Part shown: in pieces, positions 51,596-57,804 of the stretch | How the letters are laid out: each line of letters begins with the position of its first letter | How positions within the stretch are numbered: the first letter of the stretch is position 1 | NCBI RefSeq assembly: GCF_014644315.1 | Contig: NZ_BMKL01000001.1 | Span: 2,057,001 to 2,121,000 of the forward strand | Origin: Tsuneonella deserti | Lineage (GTDB): Bacteria > Pseudomonadota > Alphaproteobacteria > Sphingomonadales > Sphingomonadaceae | Reading direction: 5' to 3' | Length of the DNA: 64,000 bases | Notes under the pieces: model-generated | The model's input: the letters and a program-made list of their open reading frames with translations, nothing else | What the model was told of the DNA's origin: nothing | Databases searched by the model: none | Made by a program: the position numbers and the translations under genes

Positions 51596-52000
51596 ATGGC
51601 TACCCAGCAAGCCGCCACGCGGCCCCCGATTCTCATTGCCGAAGGCGAGGCCGACGCGCTCGCCGACCTGGCGGTTGCCGTCGCCGACCGTCATCCGATC
51701 GTCAGCAGCCTGCTGCTCGAGGAACTCGACCGCGCCGAAGTGCGCCCTTCTTATGACATACCGTGTGACGTGGTGACGATGGGGTCCACGGTCGAATTCC
51801 TGGTCGAGGAGACCGGGGAGAGGCGGACAGTGGAACTGGTTTATCCCAGGGACGCCGACATCGAACAGGGCCGGGTATCGATCCTCACGCCTGTCGGAGC
51901 GGGCCTGCTCGGGCTGCGCACCGGACAGTCCATCTCATGGCCCGACCGGGGTGGACACGAACGGGTGCTGACGATCGTGAAGGTCGCCCGGCCGGCCTAG
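51596..52000 (+). CDS. rnk: Rnk-like nucleoside diphosphate kinase regulator (GreA/B C-terminal fold)
   Basis: A 134-residue protein with a short N-terminal helical region and a GreA/GreB C-terminal domain: VVTMGSTVEFLVEETGERRTVELVYP (in part), ISILTPVGAGLLGLRTGQSISWP (in part). It lacks the long Gre coiled coil. Rnk binds RNA polymerase in competition with Gre factors in E. coli; the function here is inferred. ATG 51596 has GAAAG upstream. Its TAG shares CTAG with the stop of convergent pspF. Confidence 0.85.
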   Translation: MATQQAATRPPILIAEGEADALADLAVAVADRHPIVSSLLLEELDRAEVRPSYDIPCDVVTMGSTVEFLVEETGERRTVELVYPRDADIEQGRVSILTPVGAGLLGLRTGQSISWPDRGGHERVLTIVKVARPA

Positions 52001-53046
52001 GCCGCCTCGCCCTCGCCTGCTCGCTCGGCCAGCCCGTGCTTGCGGATGCAGTGGCGAAGCTGGTCGTAGCTGAGACCCAGCGCCTTGGCCGTCTGGCGCT
52101 GGTTCCAGCGATGACGGCCGAGCGCGTGCTCGACGATCGCGCGCTCGTGCGCCTCCACCGCTGCGCGCAAGTCCGCGATGCTGTCGTAATCGGTCGCCGG
52201 CGCCGCCGGCTCGCCCCGCTGGGCGGAGGGCGCCTGATGGACGCGTGGCTGGCCGCCGGCGCCCGACGGCTTCCACGGGCTTTCGAACGGGTCGAACACG
52301 ATGTGGCCGATCGGGCTGCGCGGATCGTTCCACCGATAGACCGCGCGCTCGATCACGTTGCGCAACTCGCGCACGTTGCCGGGCCACTGGTAGCCCTCGA
52401 GTTGCTCGCACACATGGTCAGCGAAGCCGGGCCATTGATCCCAGCGCATCTCGGAAGCCATCCGCCGCCCGAAGAATTCCGCCAGCACGAGAATGTCCCC
52501 CTCGCGCACCCGCAACGGAGGCAGTGTGATGACCTCGAAACTCAACCGGTCGAGCAGGTCGGCGCGAAACTCGCCCCGATCGGCCAGGGCGGGCAGGTCC
52601 TCGTTGGTCGCGGCGACGATGCGCACATCTACCCGGATCGGACGGTTCGAGCCGATGCGGGTAACCTCGCCGTATTCGACGGCGCGCAGTAGGCGTTCCT
52701 GCGCCTGCATCGACAGCGTGCCAAGCTCGTCGAGGAAAAGCGTGCCACCGTCGGCCTCCTCGAAACGACCCTCGCGGGCGCGGGTGGCACCGGTGAAGGC
52801 GCCTGCTTCGTGCCCGAACAATTCAGCCTCGATCAGCGTTTCGGGCAGCGCGGCGCAGTTCATTGTGACGAGCGGCTCGCCCCAGCGGGTGGACAGGCGG
52901 TGGAGACGCTCGGCGATCAGTTCCTTGCCCGTCCCGCGCTCGCCGACCACCAGCACCGGGCGGTGCATCGGGGCGGCCTGGCTGGCGCGCTCCACCGCGT
53001 CGAGGAACGCTCCCGATTGGCCGATGAACTGGCTTTCCCGCTCCAT
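51997..53046 (-). CDS. pspF: Phage shock protein operon activator PspF
   Basis: A 349-residue sigma-54 enhancer-binding protein without a receiver domain. [19 protein letters not shown] is Walker [25 protein letters not shown] carries the GAFTGA sigma-54 loop, and [11 protein letters not shown]alker B. A C-terminal Fis-type helix-turn-helix ([21 protein letters not shown]) binds DNA. ATG 53046 gives [11 protein letters not shown]. It is transcribed divergently from the psp operon it should activate; in E. coli, PspA holds it inactive. Confidence 0.96.
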
Positions 53047-53071
53047 GCCCAACCTATAGCGAATTACGCCA

Positions 53072-53083
53072 TTTGTCGGCAAA
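53072..53083. promoter_or_regulatory. Candidate PspF upstream activating dyad
   Basis: TTTGTCGGCAAA is a 4+4 inverted repeat with a 4-base spacer, between the divergent pspF and psp starts and about 65 bases upstream of the sigma-54 -24 element, where an enhancer would be expected. It does not obviously match the enterobacterial PspF site, so the call is tentative. Confidence 0.3.
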
Positions 53084-53135
53084 CGAAACCATCATGTCGT
53101 TCGTCGAAATCGCACGCGCATCCGTAAATCGAAAT

Positions 53136-53152
53136 TGGCACGCCCCTTGCTG
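53136..53152 (+). promoter_or_regulatory. Sigma-54 promoter of the psp operon
   Basis: TTGGCACGCCCCTTGCT fits the sigma-54 consensus TGGCAC-N5-TTGC exactly, with GG at 53138-53139 (-24) and GC at 53150-53151 (-12). Transcription would begin near 53163, about 24 bases before the ATG of the small first gene. Confidence 0.92.
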
Positions 53153-53186
53153 AATGGTGAACATCATTCACGGGAGCACCCATCAA

Positions 53187-53339
53187 ATGTTCGACCGCCG
53201 TTTCCTGCAGACCCGCCTTGGACAGGCCGCGACCGCGAGCATCGCCGCGATGGCCCTGTTCGTGGCGCTGAGCAGCCAGATCCAGGCGACCCCGGCCTAC
53301 GCCGCCGATCCCGTTCTCCACTCGGTGGAACTGGCGTGA
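53187..53339 (+). CDS. 50-residue exported or membrane peptide, first gene of the psp operon
   Basis: ATG 53187 has GGGAG 8 bases upstream and lies about 24 bases after the predicted sigma-54 start, so it is the first open frame on the transcript. Residues 1-14 are basic (MFDRRFLQTRLGQA), residues about 15-35 hydrophobic (TASIAAMALFVALSS), then ATPAYA-ADP looks like a signal-peptidase site; the mature remainder would be only about ten residues. It could be a signal peptide of a tiny secreted peptide or a single-span membrane protein. Its TGA overlaps a GTG that opens into pspA. No family was recognised. Confidence 0.72.
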   Translation: MFDRRFLQTRLGQAATASIAAMALFVALSSQIQATPAYAADPVLHSVELA

Positions 53340-53575
53340 ACGCTCCGACCTCCGACGGCCCTTTCGGCGACGATCCGTTCGACCCCCTAGGGCCGGAGCG
53401 CACTACCCCCCCGTCCCGCGGATACCAGTCCCCCCGCGACGATAGCGCTCCGGCCCGACCTTCCCGCCTCGGCGGGAAGAGCCGGATCGAGCAGGAAGTC
53501 GAACGGCTGCGGCGCAGCCCCACCCCCACCCAGTCCCCCATCCAGCGGGACATCGCCAACTATGGAGTCGCCTTC
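53336..53575 (+). other. Open in-frame extension upstream of pspA (possible longer PspA)
   Basis: From GTG 53336 (overlapping the small gene's TGA as GTGA) the frame runs without a stop into pspA. The 80 extra residues are Pro/Asp/Arg/Ser-rich and probably disordered (DGPFGDDPFDPLGPE, TPPSRGYQSPRDD), ending in a basic helix IEQEVERLRRSP. Third codon positions are mostly G or C as in real genes here, which favours translation, although PspA proteins normally start at the MGIFSRTRD equivalent. Two starts on one message are possible. Confidence 0.5.
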
Positions 53576-54280
53576 ATGGGTATCTTCAGCCGCACCCGGG
53601 ACATCATCGCGGCCAATTTCAACGACATGCTCGACAAGGCCGACGATCCGGCGAAGATGATCCGCATGATCATCCTCGAGATGGAGGAAACCCTGGTCGA
53701 GGTGCGCGCCAGCGCCGCTCGCACGATCGCCGACCAGAAGGAAATGCACCGCCACACGATCAAGCTGGAACGGCTTCAGTCCGACTGGGCGGAAAAGGCC
53801 CAACTCGCGCTCAGCAAGGATCGCGAGGACCTGGCCCGCGCGGCGCTGGTCGAAAAGAAGAAGGCGGCCGACATGGCCGAGCAGCTCAAGCAGGAAATCG
53901 CCGTCCTCGACGATGCCCTGCGCGCCTACGAGCAGGACATCGAAAAGCTCCAGGTCCGCCTGCGCGAAGCGCGCAGCCGGCAGACCGCGATCGCCGCGCG
54001 GCTGGAGAGCGCGGAGAACCGCGTCAAGCTGCGCAGCCTGATGACCAACGAACGGGTGGACGACGCCCTCAGCCGCTTCGATCAGCTCGAGCGCCGGGTG
54101 GATTACGCCGAAGGCCGGGCCGATGCCCTGAGCATTGCCGACGGCACCGGCAAGCCAAGCCTTTCGGACGAAATCGCGGCGCTGGCCGGTCAGGACCAGA
54201 TCGACGACGAACTTGCACAGATGAAACGCGCACTCGGCCTCGACGACCAGGCGGGTGACGACGAAACCAGGGAGGGCTGA
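53576..54280 (+). CDS. pspA: Phage shock protein A
   Basis: A 234-residue PspA/IM30 (ESCRT-III-like) protein. ATG 53576 gives the canonical MGIFSRTRDIIAANFNDML, the amphipathic membrane-binding helix, with GGAG upstream. MIRMIILEMEETLVEVRASA, then long coiled coils (MAEQLKQEIAVLDDALRAYE) follow. The last 30 residues (DEIAALAGQDQIDDELAQMK) form the C-terminal helix. It binds PspF in unstressed cells and forms membrane-repairing assemblies under stress. A possible 80-residue N-terminal extension is described separately. Confidence 0.95.
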   Translation: MGIFSRTRDIIAANFNDMLDKADDPAKMIRMIILEMEETLVEVRASAARTIADQKEMHRHTIKLERLQSDWAEKAQLALSKDREDLARAALVEKKKAADMAEQLKQEIAVLDDALRAYEQDIEKLQVRLREARSRQTAIAARLESAENRVKLRSLMTNERVDDALSRFDQLERRVDYAEGRADALSIADGTGKPSLSDEIAALAGQDQIDDELAQMKRALGLDDQAGDDETREG

Positions 54281-54285
54281 GGGCC

Positions 54286-54582
54286 GTGGATACCATAGTA
54301 GTCGTGGCGATACTTTTCATCGCCCTTCCGTGGATCATTCTCCACTACATCACGAAGTGGAAGACCGCTTCGACCATCACGACCGACGACGAATCGCTGC
54401 TGGATGAGCTGTACCACCTCGCCAAGCGCCTCAACGACCGGATGGAAACCGTGGAACGCCTCGTTGCCTCGGACAACCCCGAGTTCAAGCCCGCTCGCCT
54501 GACTCACGAGCGCGAGCTCGACGACGAGCCGCTGCGCGAACTCGACCGCATGATTGCCGAAAAGAAGGGAGCCCGCTCGTGA
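54286..54582 (+). CDS. pspB: Phage shock protein B
   Basis: A 98-residue protein: an N-terminal membrane helix (TIVVVAILFIALPWIILHYI), the conserved PspB transition HYITKWK, then a cytoplasmic helix LDELYHLAKRLNDRMETVERL, typical of PspB. The start is GTG 54286, five bases after pspA. With PspC it senses envelope stress and sequesters PspA. It is longer than E. coli PspB (74) by an acidic-basic tail (HERELDDEPLRELDRM). Confidence 0.93.
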   Translation: MDTIVVVAILFIALPWIILHYITKWKTASTITTDDESLLDELYHLAKRLNDRMETVERLVASDNPEFKPARLTHERELDDEPLRELDRMIAEKKGARS

Positions 54583-54956
54583 ACAGCCCGCGCACCACGC
54601 TCTACCGCGACAAGCAGAATGCCAAGCTGCTCGGCGTATGCTCGGGCATCGCGGACTACACCGGGGTCAACGTCCTGTGGGTCCGGCTCGCCTTCATCAT
54701 CCTGCTGCTGACGGTCGCGCCGATCCTGCTGCCGGGATATTTCCTGGCCGGGATGGTCCTGAACAAGAAGCCGGCGCACCTCTACGTCGATCACGAAGAG
54801 CAGAGGTACTGGCAGCGCGTCCGCCAGAGCCCGCAGCGCACTGCGCGCGAGATCCGCGGCAAGTTCCGCGAGATCGACCGCCGCCTGGCCGACGTGGAGA
54901 CGTACTACGTCACCAGCAATCCGCGCCTTTCGGCTGAAATCGAGCGGCTGCGCTGA
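54579..54956 (+). CDS. pspC: Phage shock protein C
   Basis: A 125-residue PspC-domain protein: TTLYRDKQNAKLLGVCSGIADYTGVNVLWVRL (in part) is the PspC signature, followed by a membrane segment (FIILLLTVAPILLPGYFLAG) and a soluble C-terminal helix RTAREIRGKFREIDRRLADV. The GTG start at 54579 overlaps the pspB stop (GTGA). In E. coli, PspC works with PspB at the inner membrane. Confidence 0.94.
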   Translation: MNSPRTTLYRDKQNAKLLGVCSGIADYTGVNVLWVRLAFIILLLTVAPILLPGYFLAGMVLNKKPAHLYVDHEEQRYWQRVRQSPQRTAREIRGKFREIDRRLADVETYYVTSNPRLSAEIERLR

Positions 54957-54985
54957 AACCGCCGCTCTTCGAGGGGAATTTTGAA

Positions 54986-55297
54986 ATGGAAGATTTGACC
55001 GGGCTCGTGGCGGTGATGGCACCCTTCCTGATGGTCTTCGGGATCGTCTGGGTCAGGAGCCGCAGCAAGCTGGAGGAAAAGCGCCTTCACGCGACCGCGG
55101 AAAGCAGCGCCGAAAAGGCCGCCCAGTACGTCAGCCACGTGGCCGAGCTGGAGGACCGTGTGCGCGTCCTGGAGCGGATCGTGACCGACCGCGGCTACGA
55201 CGTGGCGACCCAGATCGAGGCGCTGCGCGACCAGCGCCGGGTTGAGAGCTCTGACAACGGAGTGGCGATCGACAATATTCGGCGGGAGCGCGTGTGA
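54986..55297 (+). CDS. PspB-like small membrane protein 1 of the psp operon
   Basis: A 103-residue protein with an N-terminal membrane helix (LTGLVAVMAPFLMVFGIVWV) and a C-terminal coiled coil ending AELEDRVRVLERIVTDRG then YDVATQIEALRDQR. The segment resembles the PspB coiled coil (METVERL). ATG 54986 has GAGGGG upstream. It follows pspC by 29 bases and overlaps the next gene (TGATG). It probably arose by duplication of pspB and was kept as an extra stress-sensing subunit; this is inference. Confidence 0.85.
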   Translation: MEDLTGLVAVMAPFLMVFGIVWVRSRSKLEEKRLHATAESSAEKAAQYVSHVAELEDRVRVLERIVTDRGYDVATQIEALRDQRRVESSDNGVAIDNIRRERV

Positions 55298-55632
55298 TGC
55301 CAGATGAAGTCGTCATGCTGATAACCTTCTGCCTGATCGCGGCCGTGCTGGTGACCGGGGCGCTGGTTTATGGCTGGGTTCACACGACCAAGCTCAAAAT
55401 CCGTCACGGCTATCCGCTGCAGAGCATGTGGGGCCAGCCTCTCCGGCCCAGCACCACCGCCGAAGCGGAAGAGCGGGTCAGCTTGCTCACGCAGGAAAAC
55501 GCCCAGCTCAAGGCTCAGGTCGGCTCGATGCGCGAACGGCTGGAAACGGTCGAACGGATCGTCACCGATGGCGGCTACCGTCTCACTCACGAGATCGAGC
55601 GGCTGCGGGACGGATCGGAGAAGGTGCAATGA
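55297..55632 (+). CDS. PspB-like small membrane protein 2 of the psp operon
   Basis: A 111-residue protein: membrane helix MLITFCLIAAVLVTGALVYG, a basic linker (HTTKLKIRHGYP), then a coiled coil (ERVSLLTQENAQLKAQVGSM) ending RLETVERIVTDGGY and LTHEIERLRDGS. The ending is nearly the same as in the preceding gene and in pspB. ATG 55297 shares bases with the previous stop; GTG 55294 is an alternative. Confidence 0.85.
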   Translation: MPDEVVMLITFCLIAAVLVTGALVYGWVHTTKLKIRHGYPLQSMWGQPLRPSTTAEAEERVSLLTQENAQLKAQVGSMRERLETVERIVTDGGYRLTHEIERLRDGSEKVQ

Positions 55633-55901
55633 GCCCCGGAACTGCCCTCGTCGCGATCATCGCCATCCTCGCGGTCATGATCATGCGGATCGTGAAGTAC
55701 AACACCGACCGGCGATCTTCCCCGCCCGAGGCATTGCCGGACACTGCCGAGAACGTCGCGCTGCGCCGCGAAGTCGAGGACTTGCGCGAACGGGTCCGCG
55801 TGCTCGAGCGTATTGCGACGGACGCGAACACGACGACCGCGCTCGAAAGCCGCCGCGTGGCCGAAGAAATCGAAGCTCTGCGCGACACGCGCCAATCCTG
55901 A
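55629..55901 (+). CDS. PspB-like small membrane protein 3 of the psp operon
   Basis: A 90-residue protein: membrane helix TALVAIIAILAVMIMRIV, linker, and coiled coil REVEDLRERVRVLERIATD followed by VAEEIEALRDTR. The ATG overlaps the previous TGA (ATGA). The repeated ERI-x-TD and EIEALRD elements tie it to the neighbouring genes. Confidence 0.82.
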   Translation: MSPGTALVAIIAILAVMIMRIVKYNTDRRSSPPEALPDTAENVALRREVEDLRERVRVLERIATDANTTTALESRRVAEEIEALRDTRQS

Positions 55902-55929
55902 ACATCACGGTGCAACAAGGACCTGGCAG

Positions 55930-56181
55930 ATGGACCAACAGATTGTTCTTGCCGCCACATCGCTGACCGCCATCGCGATCGTCGCCTTCGCGACCCTGCG
56001 CGGGTGGCAGGGCTGGCTCGCACTCAAGGAGCACGAGCTCGAACGCGGTGTGAACCACCTCCGCGAACGGCACAGCGGGCCCGAAACGGGGAGCGCGCTC
56101 GGCGCCGCCCGGATCGAGATCAGCGACCTCAAGGAACGAATCCGCAAGCTCGAGGCCATCGCCAGCGGGGTCGATCTGTGA
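55930..56181 (+). CDS. PspB-like small membrane protein 4 of the psp operon
   Basis: An 83-residue protein: membrane helix QQIVLAATSLTAIAIVAFAT, a helix GWLALKEHELERGVNHLRER and a short C-terminal coiled coil ISDLKERIRKLEAIASGVDL (same register as the LERI segments of its neighbours but truncated). ATG 55930 lies 28 bases after the preceding stop. Most diverged of the four PspB-like copies. Confidence 0.78.
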   Translation: MDQQIVLAATSLTAIAIVAFATLRGWQGWLALKEHELERGVNHLRERHSGPETGSALGAARIEISDLKERIRKLEAIASGVDL

Positions 56182-56354
56182 GCGCGGTCCGCAACGGTGC
56201 GGCGCAGGCCGGCATCGGACTTGGCAGCGCTATCGCGGTGGCCATCAGCTGGAGCTTGCATAAGTCGATCGTGTGGGCCGCGATCCAGGGATTCCTCGGC
56301 TGGTTCTATGTGATCTACTATGCCCTCACCCGCCCGGGAGGGTTGTCCGGCTGA
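56178..56354 (+). CDS. 58-residue membrane protein at the end of the psp operon
   Basis: The GTG start at 56178 overlaps the previous TGA (GTGA). The protein has Gly/Ala-rich GIGLGSAIAVAISWSLHKS and a second hydrophobic stretch WAAIQGFLGWFYVIYYAL, ending in a short polar tail. Two membrane passes, or one plus a re-entrant segment, are possible. It lacks the coiled coil of its neighbours, and no family was recognised. Confidence 0.75.
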   Translation: MSAVRNGAAQAGIGLGSAIAVAISWSLHKSIVWAAIQGFLGWFYVIYYALTRPGGLSG

Positions 56355-56403
56355 ACCCAGCCGGGACTAGGCCGCGCCCGCCCGCTCGGCTACGGCGCGC
56401 GCC

Positions 56404-56829
56404 ATGCGCGACCTTGCCGACATCGCAGAGGAATACGATTTCCTCGATCCCGACGACCGTTACCGCCTGTTGATCGAGCTTGGCCGCGAGCTCGAGCCGA
56501 TGCCCGATGCGCTGAAGACCGACGCCACCCTCGTACGGGGCTGCTCGGCCAGCGTGTGGGTCTATCCCACCGGGGATGCGGAGAAGCTCCATTTCCTCGC
56601 CGACAGCAACGCCGCGATCACCAAGGGAATCGTCGCGCTGGTGATCGCCGCCGTGCAGGACCGGTCCGCCGCTGAAGTGGCGGCGATGGATGTGGCGAAA
56701 GCGCTGGCGCCGTTCGATCTGAAGAACCAGCTCAGTTCGAACCGTACTCAGGGCGTTCCCAACATGATCGCGCTCGTCCAGGCGCATGCCGCGCGGCTGG
56801 CAGGCGAGTCGCCCGTTCGGCGCGCGTGA
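56404..56829 (+). CDS. sufE: SufE-like cysteine desulfuration protein
   Basis: A 141-residue sulfur acceptor that takes persulfide sulfur from a SufS-type desulfurase. The catalytic Cys47 lies in LVRGCSASVWVYP; YDFLDPDDRYRLLIELGREL is the SufE N-terminal signature, and NRTQGVPNMI closes the fold. No suf operon is adjacent. The start region lacks a strong ribosome-binding site, but ATG 56404 gives the normal N-terminus. Confidence 0.92.
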   Translation: MRDLADIAEEYDFLDPDDRYRLLIELGRELEPMPDALKTDATLVRGCSASVWVYPTGDAEKLHFLADSNAAITKGIVALVIAAVQDRSAAEVAAMDVAKALAPFDLKNQLSSNRTQGVPNMIALVQAHAARLAGESPVRRA

Positions 56830-56877
56830 ACCAATCGGGCAGGAGCGAGTTAACCCCCCGATAGCTGGGAGGGCACG

Positions 56878-57804
56878 CTGCCTCACGATTCATCCGAAGC
56901 GCATCTGCTGGAGCTGCTCGCGTGGCTCTCGCAGGAGAACTACGCCTTCCGCTCGGTCACTCCCGCGACCCACGCCAGGGTGGTCCGCAAGAGGCCGCCG
57001 GCAGCAAGCGTGCGCGACGTTCTGGGGTGGAGCATGCCCTTCCGGCCGGACGCCCTTCCCGCCGAATTGCTCGACCTGCTGCGCCGTGCCGATGCGCTCG
57101 AGTCTTGTTCCGAAGGTTTCCGCAGCAGGTTCCGTGTGTCCAGCCTTGGCCAACGGCTGTTCCTGCATTCGGCCTATCCCACCTCCAGCGAAGACGCCGT
57201 GTTCTTTGGACCTGACACCTATCGCTATGCCGCCCTCATCGAAAACGAACTGCCGGGCCTTGGCCCCAAACGGAGGATCGTCGATGTCGGCGCGGGCACC
57301 GGCGCGGGCGGGATTGTCGCAGCGAAGCTGTGTTCCGGCGCGCGCCTCACGCTCACCGACGTGAACCAGGCGGCTCTCCGCCTCGCGCGGATCAACGCCG
57401 CGTTCGCCGGGGTCGAGGCCGAACTGGTCGAAGGAGAGGGGCTGGACCGGGTTGACGGACCGATCGACCTCATCCTCGCCAACCCGCCCTATATCATGGA
57501 CGAAAAAGGGCGCGCCTACCGCGATGGGGGCAACATGCATGGCGCGCGGTTATCGTTCGACTGGGCGCTGGAGGCAGCCCGCCGGCTCGCGCCCGGAGGC
57601 CACATGGTGCTCTACACCGGCGTCTCCATCATCGATGGCGAAGACGAACTGCGCGCCGCCCTCGCCCGCGACCTGCCCGGGCTCGGCTGCTCGCTGCGGT
57701 ATCGCGAGCTCGACCCGGATGTCTTCGGAGAGGAGCTGGAAAAGCCGCCCTACCGGGACGTGGAGCGCATCGCCGCAGTCGCAGCGGTCATCACCAGGAA
57801 CTGA
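56878..57804 (+). CDS. HemK/PrmC-like SAM-dependent methyltransferase
   Basis: About 308 residues if translation begins at CTG 56878. The C-terminal half has the SAM loop RIVDVGAGTGAGGIVAA, the acidic loop TLTDVNQAALRLAR and the catalytic NPPY motif (LILANPPYIMDEKG), as in N5-glutamine or N6-adenine methyltransferases. The N-terminal half is a helical domain (LLELLAWLSQENYAFR and later SMPFRPDALPAELLDLL). GGGAGGG is placed four bases before the CTG and no ATG, GTG or TTG lies in frame until GTG 56980, which would cut the helical domain. The substrate is unknown. Confidence 0.83.
   Translation: MPHDSSEAHLLELLAWLSQENYAFRSVTPATHARVVRKRPPAASVRDVLGWSMPFRPDALPAELLDLLRRADALESCSEGFRSRFRVSSLGQRLFLHSAYPTSSEDAVFFGPDTYRYAALIENELPGLGPKRRIVDVGAGTGAGGIVAAKLCSGARLTLTDVNQAALRLARINAAFAGVEAELVEGEGLDRVDGPIDLILANPPYIMDEKGRAYRDGGNMHGARLSFDWALEAARRLAPGGHMVLYTGVSIIDGEDELRAALARDLPGLGCSLRYRELDPDVFGEELEKPPYRDVERIAAVAAVITRN

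Follow-up and report, generated by a model that had tools for sequence, protein, structure and literature searches.

Where do the small membrane proteins encoded behind pspC in the phage-shock (psp) operon of Tsuneonella deserti come from, and what might they add to the response? The window analyzed here, a stretch of 64,000 nucleotides (contig NZ_BMKL01000001.1, positions 2,057,001 to 2,121,000), carries five such genes, T1 to T5, in one tight cluster downstream of pspC. An earlier sequence-only reading had explained them by serial duplication of pspB. Controlled profile comparisons show T1–T3 to be related to both PspB and the C-terminal end of PspC beyond coiled-coil periodicity, and T4 appears to be tied to PspB indirectly, through T3 and T1. 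Because a tree separates them from PspB and T3-type genes lie away from psp in other families, T1–T4 look like members of a third PspB/PspC-like family, one that moved into the operon and was amplified there, and less like products of serial pspB duplication; we infer that the direction of the move was into the operon. The genes concerned are the following.

54286–54582, + strand: pspB, canonical (TIGR02976, 86.2 bits, cut-off 51.7)
54579–54956, + strand: pspC, canonical (TIGR02978, 126.2 bits, cut-off 104)
54864–54953, + strand: last 30 residues of PspC, which contain the stretch aligned with T1–T3
54986–55297, + strand: T1, PspB/PspC-like membrane coiled-coil protein, 103 aa
55294–55632, + strand: T2, PspB/PspC-like, 112 aa (GTG at 55294) or 111 aa (ATG at 55297)
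55629–55901, + strand: T3, PspB/PspC-like, 90 aa, single-copy in most of the family, its type also found away from psp elsewhere
55930–56181, + strand: T4, 83 aa, shorter relative ending in RKLEAIASGVDL
56178–56354, + strand: T5, 58 aa, two predicted helices, not PspB-like, no family matched

Relationship of the tail proteins to PspB and PspC

From hydropathy, T1–T4 are each predicted to have a single N-terminal membrane helix followed by a cytoplasmic coiled coil, which agrees with the PspB layout previously described for four tail proteins. Lysine and arginine were commoner on the C side of the helix than on the N side in 398 of 406 T1–T4 proteins (78 loci found with the PspB of the window as query), a bias from which the positive-inside rule predicts cytoplasmic coiled coils, with the C side oriented as in PspB. 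An AlphaFold2 model of T2 contained helices 3–38 and 56–110 (mean predicted local distance difference test score 83, predicted template modeling score 0.40). The motif reported for three of the proteins, LERI/VERI-x-TD followed by EIE-x-LRD, was present in T1–T3 in the slightly looser form [LV]ERI-x-TD, then xIExLRD; T2 (VERIVTD...EIERLRD) and T3 (LERIATD...EIEALRD) fit the original wording, and T1 (LERIVTD...QIEALRD) has Q instead of E. T4 lacks the full motif, its sequence ending at RKLEAIASGVDL, and T5 lacks the shared motif altogether.

Single-sequence scans gave low scores. In NCBIfam, the top match for each of T1–T3 was PspB or PspC, with E-values of 0.0011 (PspC C-terminus) and 0.0052 (PspB) for T1, 0.0022 (PspC) and 0.035 (PspB) for T2, and 0.0052 (PspB) for T3, all of them matches that fall short of the cut-offs; the bit scores against PF06667 and TIGR02976 were 12.9 and 17.0 for T1, 11.9 and 14.4 for T2, and 15.9 and 17.0 for T3, compared with cut-offs of 25.6 and 51.7. 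T4 and T5 had no PspB or PspC match in the Pfam and NCBIfam scans, and the PspC domain PF04024 was not listed for any of T1–T5 in the Pfam scan. When the whole genome was searched with the Pfam PspB model, which matched in five places, PspB ranked first (4e-21), T3 second (E 0.05), T2 fourth (0.39), and T1 fifth (0.48); with the threshold relaxed to E 10, 12 of 14 control genomes gave matches as well. Because these E-values are weak and control genomes also yield matches, the weight of the argument rests on controlled class profiles and on the family-wide conservation of T1–T4.

For the class profiles, the genes of 87 psp loci of relatives and of the window were called by a codon-score script, and the 246 downstream proteins were clustered into four large classes of 48–65 members, a T5 class of 13, and five leftovers. 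Comparison by hhalign linked T1 with T2 (2.5e-20), T1 with T3 (1.7e-17), T2 with T3 (2.3e-22), and T3 with T4 (4.4e-9; reversed control 0.024); the T1 class matched outgroup PspB at E 3.2e-10 over 62 columns, and the T2 class matched the PspC C-terminus at E 7.2e-8. T3 with outgroup PspC (1.2e-4) and PspB with the PspC C-terminus (0.009) were weaker; all of these are single-pair E-values, some of which shift by roughly an order of magnitude on exchange of query and target. In all 13 controlled class pairs, real scores (31–55) exceeded those of reversed (at most 22.5) and heptad-shuffled (at most 20.8) profiles. The T1–T3 classes scored 32–55 against PspB (reversed at most 19.6, shuffled at most 20.8) and 31–42.5 against the PspC C-terminus (reversed at most 22.5, shuffled at most 20.4), so that the two were matched about equally well. 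The kinship with PspB proposed earlier is thus paralleled by one with the PspC C-terminal end, and T5 has no part in it, being unrelated to PspB. Among solved structures, queries with PspB and PspC retrieved no relative of either.

A tree was computed for 107 proteins (from 16 chosen family genomes, plus seven outgroup PspB) on 86 columns, few enough for the tree program to issue a warning, and was rooted on PspB. A branch with a Shimodaira–Hasegawa-like approximate likelihood ratio test (SH-aLRT) value of 100 separated canonical PspB, from both the family and the outgroup, from the array genes. The latter grouped by class and across genera, not by genome, with low support for the T1 (46) and T2 (58) classes and higher values for T3 (92) and T4 (100). 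Within loci, T1–T3 paralogs shared a median identity of 34% (maximum 61%, 583 pairs), which together with the grouping by class indicates that most of the duplications are old. T1–T5 are under purifying selection: in ten chosen species pairs, with ortholog pairs below 60% identity or with a synonymous rate (dS) outside 0.02–3 left out, the median ratio of the nonsynonymous rate to dS was 0.10 for T1 (17 pairs), 0.17 for T2 (14), 0.13 for T3 (10), 0.09 for T4 (9), and 0.05 for T5 (8). T5 is strongly conserved where present; it matched no family model in Pfam or NCBIfam, and the names among 120 listed of its 1050 relatives at E ≤ 0.001 were 'hypothetical' or 'uncharacterized protein'.

Distribution of the array and of unlinked relatives

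The family set comprised 59 genomes including the window, of which 57 had PspC and 51 had PspC and SufE on the stretch examined. A T1–T4-type array was present in 50 of these 51 loci: the number of T1–T4-type genes was zero in one locus, one, two, and three in three loci each, four in 22, five in 11, six in five, seven in two, and eight in one. Of the 51 loci, 48 had a single T3 and 47 a single T4, T1 and T2 varied from none to three copies, and T5 occurred in 14; the six loci without SufE on the stretch had two to five array genes. The family genomes without a T match were G027 and G045 (no PspC) and G058 (pspC followed by sufE). A second set, the best 80 of 174 loci found with the PspB of the window, included 76 loci with pspC and sufE, nine of which overlap the family set, and all 76 carried the array (one gene in 1, four in 11, five in 37, six in 21, seven in 4, eight in 1, and nine in 1, Altererythrobacter segetis). 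T5 was found in 40 query-found loci, and among the four without SufE two had four T genes and two, on short stretches (L188 and L192), had none.

Outside the family, 31 loci from other families of the order were considered, 30 with PspC and 18 with PspC and SufE. None of the 18 had array genes, and two of the other 12 (G071 and G081) carried one T gene, located behind an additional, short PspC. Both genomes (loci L058 and L094) have another T gene elsewhere, and they possibly represent an intermediate stage. Among 289 genomes drawn from the class, two or more matches to a T1–T3 profile were confined to the family (5/5 genomes, three to five each), and nine non-family genomes had one match each. 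The search in sphingomonads and the wider class that the sequence-only reading had proposed found the array in nearly all family loci and, in this draw, multiple T1–T3 matches in the family only.

Single relatives occur more widely. The T3-type profile A4 (built in part from rows of G249, G071, and G081) was run on 397 genomes of Pseudomonadota and matched 54, comprising all 21 family genomes (two to five matches each) and 33 others (one to three each). In 20 regions from 18 of these 33 non-family carriers, a T gene was present with no psp gene recognized within about 3 kb. Tandem T genes away from psp were seen in L228 and, from two genomes of the class, in L203 and L241; those of L203 follow what we take to be a dut-like gene. 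Canonical PspC (E ≤ 1e-20) was found in 32 of the 33 carriers, the remaining one (G404) having a weak match inside a 1185-aa frame, and in 63 of all 376 non-family genomes. The co-occurrence of T genes with PspC was significant by genomes (Fisher P 1e-27, from two-way counts that combine two tables, both draws being taken as the same 397 genomes) and by genera (PspC in 18/19 carrier genera versus 35/220, P 7e-16). In the 32 carriers, the listed T genes and pspC were on different contigs or separated by 27 kb or more (nearest in G717), except for an extra weak match in G541 beside its pspC, which is probably PspB.

Among 39 genomes of the order outside the family, a T gene was detected in 24, comprising 23 of 31 PspC-positive and one of eight PspC-negative genomes. 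In 21 of the 24, psp was on another contig or far away, two (G071 and G081) had both linked and unlinked T genes, and one had no PspC (G093, 71% complete). Absences and distances are uncertain, given the limited number of candidates scored in each genome and the fragmented state of several assemblies. Ten unlinked relatives chosen from other families matched both PspB and PspC of NCBIfam (E ≤ 0.1, none above the cut-off), one of the two being the top match in nine; Pfam PspB matched nine, in four of which other models scored better. Furthermore, 120 listed of 1710 relatives, from Thalassotalea, Colwellia, Pseudoalteromonas, Ferrimonas, and other genera, were mostly named 'hypothetical protein', with some 'Phage shock protein B' or 'phage shock protein C' and few other names, and two Tsuneonella T3 proteins bear the UniRef name 'Phage shock protein B'.

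The operon around the array and the PspA extension

The locus has the sigma-54 promoter, the divergent pspF, and the pspABC genes of a psp operon. The open reading frames (ORFs) and NCBIfam matches bear out the gene order given previously, namely a 50-residue ORF, PspA, PspB, PspC, and five small ORFs, as well as the near-consensus sigma-54 promoter ahead of it. PspF, PspA, PspB, and PspC each passed the NCBIfam cut-off, and none of T1–T5 did. The features around the array are listed below.

51997–53082, − strand: pspF, divergent sigma-54 activator of the psp operon (TIGR02974, 481.9 bits, cut-off 443.55)
53136–53151, + strand: near-consensus sigma-54 (−24/−12) promoter element TGGCACGCCCCTTGCT
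53187–53339, + strand: 50-aa leader ORF with a hydrophobic stretch, no family matched
53336–54280, + strand: pspA with an in-frame N-terminal extension of about 80 aa (GTG start at 53336, core start at 53576; PspA core at residues 81–299, TIGR02977, 280 bits, cut-off 243)
53480–53533, + strand: motif SRIEQEVERLRRSPTPTQ in the PspA extension, resembling the C-terminal helix of PspC, T3, and T2
56404–56829, + strand: sufE, flanking gene that marks the end of the array (PF02657, 120.4 bits, cut-off 27)

Among the loci with PspA called, a sigma-54 element was found within 700 bases upstream of pspA in 56/57 family loci and 27/29 order-mate loci, counts made without a shuffle control, and a small ORF (below 80 aa) was called just before pspA in 40/57 family loci. 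A leader of another kind, about 55 aa with an MNI start and an arginine-rich end, occupies the pspF–pspA gap of several order-mates from other families (L056, L071, L074, L111, and others). Within 52900–57000, two terminator-like sites were found, both on the − strand and none on the + strand (chance expectation 3.2), together with a single weak sigma-70-like site on the + strand at 55251–55279 (chance expectation 0.6). In the 78 query-found loci with a called tail, array neighbors overlapped in 269 of 367 pairs, and a further 43 pairs were at most 30 bases apart.

At the genus level, the open frame of pspA reaches back to a start codon overlapping the stop codon of the leader. PspA, called by our own gene caller, was extended by 21–119 residues in 26 of the 57 family genomes, and 23 of these 26 extensions carry R[LIF][DE]xE[VIM]xx[LA]R followed by SPxP; the extension in the window (53336–53575) carries it as EVERLRRSPTPTQ. 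By hhalign, this stretch matched the C-terminal helices of PspC (E 2e-5, reversed control 0.003), T3 (4e-5, reversed 0.32), and T2 (8e-5, reversed 0.27), with poor matches to T1 (0.004), T4 (0.04), and PspB (0.17). Because the span is 16–23 residues and has no shuffle control, the apparent kinship of the PspA motif with the PspC/T3/T2 helix is a lead only.

Possible role in the Psp response

The interpretation we favor, to which we give about an even chance, is that the tail supplies further subunits of the Psp sensor complex, anchored in the membrane and drawn from a family that was brought beside pspC and diversified. T1–T4 would derive from a PspB/PspC-like family with a single membrane helix, a coiled coil, and, in T1–T3, a PspC-type C-terminal helix, a family encoded apart from the psp operon in other PspBC-bearing bacteria. 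In the ancestor of the family, a T gene would have been placed next to pspC and then given rise to four classes. The T proteins would most likely form a complex with PspB and PspC by membrane-helix and coiled-coil contacts and present PspA with several PspC-type helices. Differing membrane segments, and perhaps diverse signals, would then feed one output, in which PspA is pulled off PspF and held at the membrane. Since T1–T3 combine a PspB-like body with a PspC-type end, they may be expected to join PspBC and to add PspA-docking ends. According to PMC3068692, fragment 40–119 of Escherichia coli PspC binds PspA, with its leucine zipper needed for binding and induction, and PspB self-associates and binds PspC, not PspA.

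Several observations weigh against this interpretation. None of T1–T4 reaches the PspB or PspC cut-offs, and in Pfam T1, T2, and T4 score higher with unrelated coiled-coil or membrane models. The T4 class has no direct match to the PspB (E 0.02) or PspC (E 0.12) profiles and lacks the PspC-type helix. PMC3068692 also describes the C-terminal part of E. coli PspC as possibly periplasmic or switching. Kinship in the co-occurrence counts was handled by counting genera alone. No T gene was detected in 31 of the 63 PspC-bearing non-family genomes, which indicates that T is not required for Psp function. Finally, no consistent sigma-54 site was found upstream of 21 unlinked T genes, where the best sites were mostly within the shuffle range (shuffle fraction ≤ 0.05 in 6/21), so that unlinked T genes outside the family are not evidently controlled by PspF.

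Serial in-place duplication of canonical pspB, with all four tail genes as drifted copies, would account for the PspB layout, the detectable similarity to PspB, and the position beside pspB and pspC. The kinship of T1–T3 with PspB on which this explanation was built is upheld by the controlled profiles; the tree and the distribution, on the other hand, disfavor duplication. The SH-aLRT 100 branch splits array genes from canonical PspB, the PspC-type end of T1–T3 is missing from PspB, T3-type genes lie away from psp outside the family, and both order-mates with a linked T gene also have an unlinked one. We therefore regard in-place duplication as unlikely. That the four are unrelated single-pass coiled-coil proteins, alike through coiled-coil periodicity alone, is suggested by the low single-sequence scores and by other Pfam models that score at least as well as PspB for T1, T2, and four of the ten unlinked relatives. 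The profile check that had been proposed for membership in unrelated families was divided, with Pfam favoring unrelated models for T1, T2, and T4 and the class profiles linking T1–T3 to PspB. However, the reversed and heptad-shuffled controls were far lower in 13 of 13 pairs, and NCBIfam PspB or PspC was the top match for T1–T3 and nine of the ten unlinked relatives, which makes a likeness through periodicity alone very improbable.

It is also rather improbable that the array consists of effectors acting directly on the membrane, by pore plugging or as a scaffold for PspA, with no regulatory part, as PspBC do against secretins. According to PMC5596341, PspBC of Yersinia are found in a complex with multimeric secretins and have a protective function distinct from their regulatory one; an expansion of dosage fits such a role, and T4 and T5 are without the PspC-type helix. 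Against this stands the PspC-type C-terminal stretch that T1–T3 retain under purifying selection, a feature that is compatible with an effector as well. Beyond a set of sensor subunits in this one family, it is conceivable, if doubtful, that T-type proteins are an undescribed third Psp membrane component across Proteobacteria, normally encoded outside the operon and here expanded to a set of sensors that share a single output helix. In the same scenario, the PspA extension seen in many of these genera would bear a copy of this helix, through which PspA would compete in cis against PspC and the T proteins for one docking site.

Compared with known components, T1–T4 resemble PspB (PF06667, TIGR02976) in the short N-terminal membrane helix followed by a coiled coil, the T1 class being alignable with outgroup PspB over 62 columns, and differ from it in falling below the cut-offs, in the extra PspC-type C-terminal helix of T1–T3, and in their separate place in the tree. 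The C-terminal part of PspC (TIGR02978, about 71–121) shares a coil, a V-T-S/D turn, and an xIExLR helix with T1, T2, and the ten unlinked relatives, and with the T3 class by profile; unlike PspC, T1–T5 lack PF04024. Enterobacterial PspD and PspG are extra small Psp-associated proteins, pspG being an orphan under PspF (PMC9239133, accessible text), and the T proteins are set beside them by description, not by sequence; unlike pspG, unlinked T genes have no consistent sigma-54 site. Ravi et al. (2024, PMC11237479) have already mentioned 'PspB duplicates' of psp operons, in a single clause; the accessible text of that paper does not give classes, distribution, unlinked relatives, or co-occurrence. 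The array is not mentioned in the accessible text of Popp (2022, PMC9239133), and that of PMC5443232 names PspC in prophage regions and nothing further. The class structure, the family-wide conservation, the unlinked co-occurring relatives, and the PspA motif were not found in the accessible text of the open-licence literature searched.

The mechanism by which PspB and PspC detect membrane stress and switch PspA has long been in question. Judged by its sequences, the T-type family is a hardly described, sensor-like family that elsewhere occurs mostly in bacteria with the same stress system. Its unlinked relatives suggest a further component in many PspBC bacteria, which lies under the PspB and PspC cut-offs of domain surveys. 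The array itself offers a natural series of one to nine diverged sensor-like genes, with order-mates that have none or one, in which sensing by the membrane part may be separable from output through the shared helix.

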